Below, one piece after another: positions 11,684 through 36,304 of a stretch of DNA of 64,000 nucleotides. Made by a program: the position numbers and the translations under genes. The notes below the pieces were generated by a model that had not been told where the DNA came from, did not search any database, and saw only the letters and a list, made by a program, of their open reading frames with translations. The stretch is from positions 1 to 64,000 of the forward strand of contig JACRCL010000001.1 of the NCBI GenBank assembly GCA_016219015.1, written 5' to 3'. Source of the stretch: Deltaproteobacteria bacterium (lineage in GTDB: Bacteria; Desulfobacterota; GWC2-55-46). Positions within the stretch are counted from its first letter, which is position 1. Every line of letters begins with the position of its first letter.

Positions 11684-12100
11684 TTCGAATTTTGGGTTTT
11701 CAGCACCCTGTTAAGGATATTACTCCGTATTATTTCTGAAAGGCATCGTATATTTTCGCCGTTTTTATCGGTTTTTTTAAGGGTTTACTAAAACAGATTC
11801 CACAAGTTTTGTCAAGGCCGCGACCCTGTTGCGCGGGCATAAAAAAACCGCCGGGGCATATGACAAATACGAGCTTTCGCTCTATCTCATTTTGCCCAGA
11901 CGGTCGGCTGATTCTTATTCATTCCGCTCCCCGGTGGTGCCCACCTTGATTCCGTCAGTAGCGGAAAGACGAGGGGAAAACCCTTATTTTAATCAGGGGA
12001 AAAATATTACATTAAAGGGGCAGGATTTGTCAAGTGCTATTTGTTCTCATTACGTGGGGCTTGCCTTGCGCCTGGCGGATGCGGAGCAATTATCTTGGCC
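11684..12100. other. Intergenic stretch, no gene recognised
   Basis: About 400 bases between the R5 copy upstream of icd and an R2 copy. A 125-codon frame (11829-12206, +) crosses it but runs into the R2 repeat, has no ribosome site I accept and resembles no family; I do not call it. Base composition is more AT-rich than the flanking genes. Confidence 0.4.
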
Positions 12101-35075: not shown

Positions 35076-35198
35076 CACGGACGCAAGAAATGGCTTTAGG
35101 CAAGGCGGACGACGAGTCCAACCGCAGGCGTACTTTTTTGTACGTCGAGGATTGGACGAGGAGTACAACGCAGCATAAAGACATTTATTGCGTCCGTG
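35076..35198. repeat. R4 repeat, copy A
   Basis: 123 bp with perfect 11-bp complementary arms (CACGGACGCAA at 35076-35086, TTGCGTCCGTG at 35188-35198). Inside, AAATGGCTTTAG pairs with ATAAAGACATTT, CGAGTCCAA with TTGGACGAG, and GGCGTAC with GTACGTC around a T loop. It lies between the convergent beta-helix protein and the rhodanese. The core is identical to copy B at 35590. Confidence 0.9.
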
Positions 35199-35212: not shown

Positions 35213-35545
35213 TTACTTCTTCTCAAGCTGATACCCTGCCCTGACCCATTCGTTGAAGCCGCCGAGGAGCGCGCTCGCCGACCTGAAGCCGTTGCCAAGG
35301 AGTATCTGCGCCGCACGGGCGCTCGAGTGCTCCTCCGTTCAGGTGCAGTAGGCGACTACCTCCTTTGACTTATCGAGCTCATTGAGCCTCGCAGCGAGCT
35401 CCGCAAGGGGTATCCTTATCGCCCCCGGTATCTTAACGTTACTGTTGCCGTAGTCCGTCGGGTTCCTTACGTCGAGCAGTATTAAATCCTCCCTGTTGTC
35501 GATCTTCTTCTTAAGGTCCTCCCTGCTTATCCTCGGGGCTTCCAT
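35213..35545 (-). CDS. Rhodanese-domain protein with in-frame TGA at the active site; candidate selenoprotein
   Basis: A single-domain rhodanese (sulfurtransferase) of 110 codons if the TGA at 35339-35341 is read through as residue 69. The first part (ISREDLKKKIDNREDLILLDVRNPTDY ... split by family strands) ends VVAYCT, and the same frame continues after TGA with TEEHSSARAAQILLGNG and ALLGGFNEWVRAGY to a TAA at 35213. In relatives the loop reads YCTC followed by a P/T-x-E-H-x-S-A-R, so the TGA replaces the second cysteine, giving C67-T-U69. A SECIS-like hairpin follows (35299-35341). Alternatives are a sequencing error (TGC or TGT to TGA) or a nonsense-mutated gene. R4 repeats flank it on both sides. 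Confidence 0.6.
35299..35341 (-). promoter_or_regulatory. Possible bacterial SECIS element
   Basis: Directly after the TGA on the minus strand: lower stem GGAG/CTCC (35330-35333 with 35299-35302), internal loop, upper stem GCGCC/GGCGC (35318-35322 with 35308-35312), apical loop CGTGC. The apical loop begins 21 bases after the TGA and has a G in its first two positions, which fits the known bacterial SECIS rules. GC-rich coding DNA can form such hairpins by chance. Confidence 0.4.
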
Positions 35546-35589
35546 AACGGCCTCCAGTTTAATTAATTCGCATTAAAAAGCATCATCAA

Positions 35590-35712
35590 TTAGAATGCAA
35601 GAAATGGCTTTAGGCAAGGCGGACGACGAGTCCAACCGCAGGCGTACTTTTTTGTACGTCGAGGATTGGACGAGGAGTACAACGCAGCATAAAGACATTT
35701 ATTGCGTTCTAA
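35590..35712. repeat. R4 repeat, copy B
   Basis: 123 bp with arms TTAGAATGCAA (35590-35600) and TTGCGTTCTAA (35702-35712), complementary apart from one T-G wobble. The core matches copy A exactly, while the outer arm bases are different in sequence but still self-complementary. It ends 5 bases before the stop of the nicotinamidase gene. Confidence 0.9.
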
Positions 35713-35716
35713 CGCG

Positions 35717-36304
35717 TCATACAAGCTCCACTTCGTCTACGGTCGTGGTGCCCGCGCCTTTCTCTATCATCTCGTCTATCGCCTGCCCGGAATCCCCTTC
35801 CTTCACGTCTACGCCCTTTATCGCGTCAAGGAGGACCGTTACCCGCAGCCCCGCCTTGAGCCCGTCGAGGGCGGTCTGCCTTACGCAGTAGTCGGTTGCA
35901 AGGCCGCCGACATAGATATGGTCTACGCCTTCATCCCTCAAAACGCGAGCTAATTCTCTCCCATCAGGGTCTTTCCCGTCAAAGCCCGAGTAGCTGTCCT
36001 TTTCAGGGTCTTCGCCTTTCGTGATTACCGCGGCGTCAGGAGGGACCTTAAGCTCAGGGTGAAACTCCGCGCCCTTTGTCCCCTGCACGCAGTGAGGAGG
36101 CCAGGAGCCGCCGTACTCCTTGAAATGGACGGTCCTTTGCGGGTGCCAGTCCCTGGTGAAGTAAACGGGGAGCCCCGCCGCCTTGAAAAGGTCTATGTAC
36201 CTGTTCAACACCGGCACGGTGCCGCGGCCGCCCTTTACCGGCAGCGCGCCTCCCTCGCAGAAGTCGTTCTGCACGTCGACGACTATAAGGGCGCTTTTCA
36301 TCAT
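35717..36304 (-). CDS. pncA: Nicotinamidase/isochorismatase-family hydrolase
   Basis: 195 residues; converts nicotinamide to nicotinate in NAD salvage. The catalytic triad is visible as D10 (VVDVQNDF), K96 (VITKG) and C140 (ATDYCVRQT), and the metal-binding residues as D52, H54 (RDWHP) and H71. This combination points to nicotinamidase rather than isochorismatase. Two ATG codons in tandem (36304 and 36301) follow GGAGAGG; either could be used. Stand-alone gene; R4 copy B is at its 3' end. Confidence 0.9.
   Translation of the reverse strand: MMKSALIVVDVQNDFCEGGALPVKGGRGTVPVLNRYIDLFKAAGLPVYFTRDWHPQRTVHFKEYGGSWPPHCVQGTKGAEFHPELKVPPDAAVITKGEDPEKDSYSGFDGKDPDGRELARVLRDEGVDHIYVGGLATDYCVRQTALDGLKAGLRVTVLLDAIKGVDVKEGDSGQAIDEMIEKGAGTTTVDEVELV

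Follow-up and report, generated by a model that had tools for sequence, protein, structure and literature searches.

The window analysed here, a stretch of 64,000 nucleotides, carries on its minus strand a short rhodanese gene whose reading frame is interrupted by one TGA. The gene starts with ATG at 35545, passes through the TGA at 35341-35339 (codon 69) and ends with TAA at 35215-35213. The following features were assigned, by window coordinates:

11887-11972, minus strand: ZMP/ZTP riboswitch (63.2 bits; gathering score 39).
35076-35198: dispersed hairpin repeat of about 123 nt, the copy close to the rhodanese gene on its 3' side.
35213-35545, minus strand: rhodanese gene with a predicted selenocysteine (Sec), assigned from its translation, Pfam PF00581 and orthologues in frame across the TGA.
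35297-35335, minus strand: extended stem-loop with lower stem GAGGAG/CUCCUU (RNA fold -19.6 kcal/mol).
35308-35322, minus strand: putative SECIS upper stem-loop, GCGCC / CGUGC loop / GGCGC, assigned from compensatory synonymous changes and a minimum free energy (MFE) of -9.4 kcal/mol.
35339-35341, minus strand: in-frame TGA, codon 69, the predicted selenocysteine of a CxU motif (C67-T68-U69), assigned from TGA conservation in homologues and a genomic tRNA-Sec with anticodon UCA.
35551-35555, minus strand: ribosome-binding site GGAGG, 5' of the ATG, assigned from sequence.
35597-35707: copy of the dispersed hairpin repeat between the rhodanese gene and the gene upstream, not part of the selenoprotein.
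35717-36304, minus strand: isochorismatase-family gene (Pfam PF00857), nicotinamidase-like by motifs, upstream of the rhodanese gene.

Translation on the minus strand confirmed the claim of an earlier note on this DNA that the frame crosses the TGA for 41 further codons and keeps the rhodanese signatures EEHSSARAA and LLGGFNEW. The read-through product is a single-domain protein of 110 amino acids which, with Sec written as U, reads ...VVAYCTUTEEHSSARAAQILLGNGFRSASALLGGFNEWVRAGYQLEKK. Residues 8-102 matched the rhodanese domain PF00581 with 58.6 bits (gathering cut-off 22.2), and the predicted model (pLDDT 89.5) aligned with solved rhodaneses at Z values of up to 18.5 (VIA-align). The protein lacks a signal peptide, and the leaderless clade that it represents is presumably cytosolic.

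The rhodanese gene lies directly downstream of the nicotinamidase-like gene in at least 10 loci of the family, often at a distance of 20 nt or less, and the two genes apparently form an operon. Class-level leaderless relatives have an Fe superoxide dismutase gene as neighbour instead. The two repeat copies that flank the rhodanese gene are identical over 111 nt. The element had 30 matches in the genome, and 23 of 30 family genomes also gave matches; its RNA fold reached -58.3 kcal/mol (z -9.6), with terminal stems that vary between copies yet remain paired, and a comparison with Rfam yielded no match at the gathering threshold. Three copies (G000:C28:28999-29267, G000:C12:160078-160349 and G000:C24:45190-45458) all carry an insert of about 150 bp at one shared position in the middle and perhaps represent a composite or second element. 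A mobile cassette between direct repeats was considered and rejected, since the order of nicotinamidase-like and rhodanese genes predates the repeats: in relatives both genes are adjacent, and the loci examined in these relatives contained no repeat. A phage origin of the rhodanese was likewise dismissed, as only three weak matches with less than 44% identity were obtained. The eight best TGA-interrupted frames of the window were screened for further selenoprotein genes; none was found, as no Pfam domain spanned the TGA, and the FlaG and TilS matches among these frames stop before it.

A protein search in 97 genomes, the window's own and those of relatives, was conducted for homologues of the rhodanese. 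Homologues that read through one TGA were found at the level of the genus, family, order, class and phylum, among them records from Desulfuromusa kysingii DSM 7343, deltaproteobacterial metagenome-assembled genomes and a Pyrinomonadaceae metagenome-assembled genome. The TGA-containing orthologues that the earlier note had proposed to look for are thus abundant. All 60 homologues kept for RNA analysis, among them a second paralogue from the source genome itself, have TGA at the codon that corresponds to residue 69. Five positions (Y66, C67, Sec69, E72 and S75) are invariant in a 52-row protein alignment, which prints Sec as C, so that two rows with Sec at position 67 were counted as C. Homologues with a CxC loop exist, and they bear out the placement of the TGA at the second cysteine of this loop. 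In comparison to the orthologue from the same genus, dN/dS was about 0.16 after the TGA and about 0.14 before it, and 10 of the 16 changed codons after the TGA were synonymous. A degraded downstream half, named beforehand as evidence against a selenoprotein, was not seen; this half is intact and constrained.

The genome also encodes the machinery for selenocysteine insertion. SelA was detected with 578 bits, SelB with 357 bits in a frame that also takes in its neighbours, SelD with 377 bits near SelB on contig C20, and a tRNA-Sec with anticodon UCA with 71 bits (cut-off 47), so that all four components for which a search had been suggested are present. The SelD gene (G000:C20:39176-40099, minus strand) likewise contains one in-frame TGA, and SelD of this organism is therefore probably a selenoprotein as well. 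Among family assemblies of up to 100 contigs, the TGA-containing rhodanese gene and tRNA-Sec co-occurred strictly: seven of seven genomes with the gene have tRNA-Sec, and seven of seven without the gene lack it (Fisher p = 0.0006). The association weakened over all 97 genomes (p = 0.12), for two reasons: nine genomes that carry a TGA homologue gave no tRNA-Sec match, all of them fragmented drafts of 120-600 contigs, and the gene is missing from many genomes with the Sec trait (from 16 of 32 among the well-assembled ones with tRNA-Sec).

Bacterial SECIS elements are described by a loop of 3-9 nt, a stem of 4-16 bp, a G among the first two nucleotides of the loop, a spacing of 16-37 nt and an MFE of -7.5 or lower (PMC13188914). 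The hairpin downstream of codon 69 lies within all these limits, with an upper stem of 5 bp and a loop of 5 nt that begins 21 nt after the UGA and carries a G at its second position. The lower stem of the extended structure is present in this species, and folds of relatives indicated that it is not conserved in most of them. On the window sequence alone the hairpin was unremarkable (z about -1.5); its significance derives from the comparison with relatives and not from the fold of a single sequence. In 60 gapless homologues, numbered with the UGA as positions 0-2, the stem pairs joining third codon positions (17-35, 23-29 and 20-32) had the three highest mutual information values among the 105 third-position pairs, with 17-35 being a G-G mismatch in the window sequence itself. 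Watson-Crick pairing was found in 228 of 240 cells, compared to 193.7 ± 3.2 under synonymous permutation among sequences, and none of 2000 permutations reached 228. The covariation score was 0.288 versus 0.123 after shuffling and no more than 0.133 with slid partners; the shuffles keep phylogeny in, and the slid controls together with a held-out set remove it in part. The held-out set comprised 30 Sec loci, in which on average 4.85 of 5 pairs (20 CxU loci) and 5.0 of 5 pairs (10 loci with Sec at both loop positions, UxU) formed; one held-out UxU row, L115, duplicates L074 and was not counted. In most CxC homologues the hairpin has decayed: six of them had a mean of 2.33 of 5 pairs, with one of the six, L141, retaining 5 of 5. 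This comparison among relatives showed the downstream hairpin to be under selection as an RNA. The hairpin proposed in the earlier note, with its loop 21 bases away, its early G and its agreement with bacterial SECIS limits, was borne out and is now complemented by synonymous covariation.

With the sel genes, the TGA orthologues, the constrained downstream half and the SECIS-like hairpin all favourable, the selenoprotein interpretation put forward earlier gained support. Since the conservation of the UGA and the constraint downstream of it are otherwise unexplained, the UGA at codon 69 is almost certainly decoded as selenocysteine, as judged from comparative sequence evidence. Nothing beyond the TGA itself speaks for a sequencing error, a nonsense mutation or a pseudogene; this reading, already barely credible, is ruled out by the TGA in 60 homologues together with the constrained half that follows it. 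It is scarcely less improbable that the TGA is a true stop, leaving a functional N-terminal half of 68 amino acids and a relic. Such a reading would agree with standard decoding, but the 41 codons after the TGA retain the rhodanese signature at a dN/dS of about 0.16 relative to the closest orthologue, the SECIS covaries, and according to the predicted model the half-domain would be devoid of the active-site loop helix.

There is no doubt that the window rhodanese belongs to an already catalogued selenoprotein family, as a member or as a close sister branch. The family is listed as 'Rhodanese-like domain-containing protein form 3, NF041203, CxU, 1 Sec' in a 2026 review catalogue (PMC13188914) and as 'COG0607 form 2, CxU' in a 2022 review (PMC9312934). 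The model NF041203 (rhodanese_LYCAU, rhodanese-related (seleno)protein) matched all 52 aligned proteins. No other model fitted the window protein as well: its residues 2-110 cover model positions 19-126 of 126, and the next best model reached 45 bits. The score of 108.1 bits is under the curated cut-off of 115, which members of the leaderless clades straddle (119.9 for L037, 118.1 for L043, 106.9 for L026 and 93.9 for L031). The YCTU motif aligned with the CxU or CxC motif of all 52 members. The window protein shares with the NF041203 family the rhodanese fold, a CxU motif with Sec in the second position and a bacterial SECIS, but differs in the absence of a leader (110 amino acids), in the residues that follow the Sec, TEEHSS where PDEATS is usual, and in its nicotinamidase-like neighbour. 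The exported paralogue in the same genome (G000:C13, L066:2758-3186) likewise has the CxU at the same place and the TGA at the same codon; it differs in its length of 143 amino acids and an N-terminal signal-like sequence, is 49% identical to the window protein and passes the NF041203 cut-off with 124.1 bits.

Other known rhodaneses are more distant. The thiosulfate sulfurtransferase GlpE of E. coli (1gmx) has the same single-domain fold (Z 14.8), but possesses one catalytic Cys, no Sec and neither CxC nor CxU. The rhodanese/DsbD fusion-like selenoprotein TsoB (NF045694) also contains a rhodanese domain with Sec; unlike the window protein it is a fusion of 572 model positions with a UxxxxU motif and two Sec, and the window protein matched this model weakly, with 21.7 bits where the cut-off is 805. 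A tree inferred after removal of the motif columns recovered a group of 16 (SH-aLRT 97), made up of leaderless proteins from the window's family and one from another family in the order; a second leaderless group, of class-level relatives, was placed nearby. Many forks of this tree are unresolved because only 108 columns were available for 100 rows. Some relatives carry additional domains, named here from sequence: a CxU rhodanese (L093:1-1536, minus strand) is fused to a stretch with many CxxCH haem-binding motifs, and another (L087:1079-2026, minus strand) to a DedA-like membrane domain. A multi-domain rhodanese (L098:674-2041, plus strand) has its in-frame TGA elsewhere in the loop (VYCEGPRUALTP), where the distance to the first Cys exceeds that in CxU by three codons, and was excluded from the RNA and tree analyses.

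The loop motif varies within the family between CxC, CxU and UxU. The UxU form, in which both residues would be Sec (YUTUP, YUAUP and similar), was found at 12 loci from six families of the phylum (f1, f14, f20, f22, f28 and f101), one of which is the window's own family:

L074:1285-1644 (G003), L094:961-1353, L127, L131, L132 and L152-L158: UxU rhodaneses with two TGA codons before one SECIS hairpin.

The two TGA codons start 6 nt apart and precede a single hairpin, whose loop follows the first UGA at 27 nt and the second at 21 nt, an arrangement which points to one SECIS hairpin serving two UGA codons in these relatives. Mapped on the tree, the UxU label needs about seven changes, of which well-supported branches force three or more. 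UxU rhodaneses are absent from the 2026 review catalogue (PMC13188914), and a full-text literature search with selenoprotein terms, judged by title or abstract, did not retrieve any, although absence there is no proof of novelty.

Regarding the catalytic roles, Sec69 falls on the canonical rhodanese Cys and S75 on the loop Ser in two of three printed profile alignments to PDB entries (6mxv and 1yt8, both ungapped). The third (6pfz) places C67 and not Sec69 on the catalytic Cys, with a two-residue gap; the equivalence of C67 or U69 with the catalytic Cys was judged from these profile alignments only. The only departures from C67 are 12 relatives that carry Sec at this position; in a residue with a structural role such a pattern would be unusual, and it argues for a resolving function. 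We therefore favour Sec69 as the putative nucleophile and C67 as the resolving residue. In the mechanism that we propose, SelB and tRNA-Sec would read the UGA at codon 69 as selenocysteine, directed by the hairpin 21 nt downstream. Sec69 would act as the nucleophile of the active-site loop and attack a sulfane-sulfur or oxidised-thiol substrate. Cys67, two residues upstream, would resolve the intermediate as a C67-U69 selenenylsulfide, which cellular thiols or thioredoxin would then reduce. This combination of Sec decoding and Sec69/C67 sulfur-redox chemistry is very likely the best account of the locus as a whole; for the chemistry itself, that of a cytosolic sulfur-transfer or persulfide-reducing redox enzyme, the chances appear evenly balanced.

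The main role of the selenoprotein's CxU pair might instead lie in oxidative stress, as a peroxide or thiol-disulfide oxidoreductase, and not in sulfur transfer. CxU is a two-chalcogen redox motif, C67 is also Sec in the UxU relatives, the genes of several class-level relatives (L037, L038 and L043) adjoin an Fe superoxide dismutase gene, and L093 joins the domain to a haem-motif-rich region, all of which would suit such a function. The fold and loop are nevertheless those of sulfurtransferases and not of the thioredoxin-like fold, and no superoxide dismutase neighbours the window gene, so that we consider this role possible but rather unlikely. Rhodanese domains also occur in selenium enzymes, such as the tRNA 2-selenouridine synthase MnmH. 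A rhodanese-based selenium-trafficking factor that carries selenium as perselenide to SelD or another selenium user would follow this precedent, to which the window protein showed a weak local similarity only (E = 0.03), and would fit the distribution of the gene, which tracks the Sec trait in the family. The sel genes are, however, located on other contigs without linkage to the rhodanese gene, and half of the well-assembled genomes with tRNA-Sec do without it, which makes a carrier function improbable. Sulfur-redox chemistry of the Sec69/C67 pair thus remains the preferred reading.

Accepting this decoding, a UGA that ordinary gene calling takes as a stop would be a real Sec codon across an entire bacterial clade, and the curated NF041203 model misses much of its leaderless branch. 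The UxU relatives suggest, with somewhat more for it than against it, that both loop positions are selenium-competent and that they form an intramolecular two-chalcogen couple (selenenylsulfide or diselenide), making the rhodanese fold a two-electron redox catalyst. The series of CxC, CxU and UxU proteins represents a natural experiment on which residue of the rhodanese loop does the chemistry, and the function of these uncharacterised Sec-rhodaneses thereby becomes testable.
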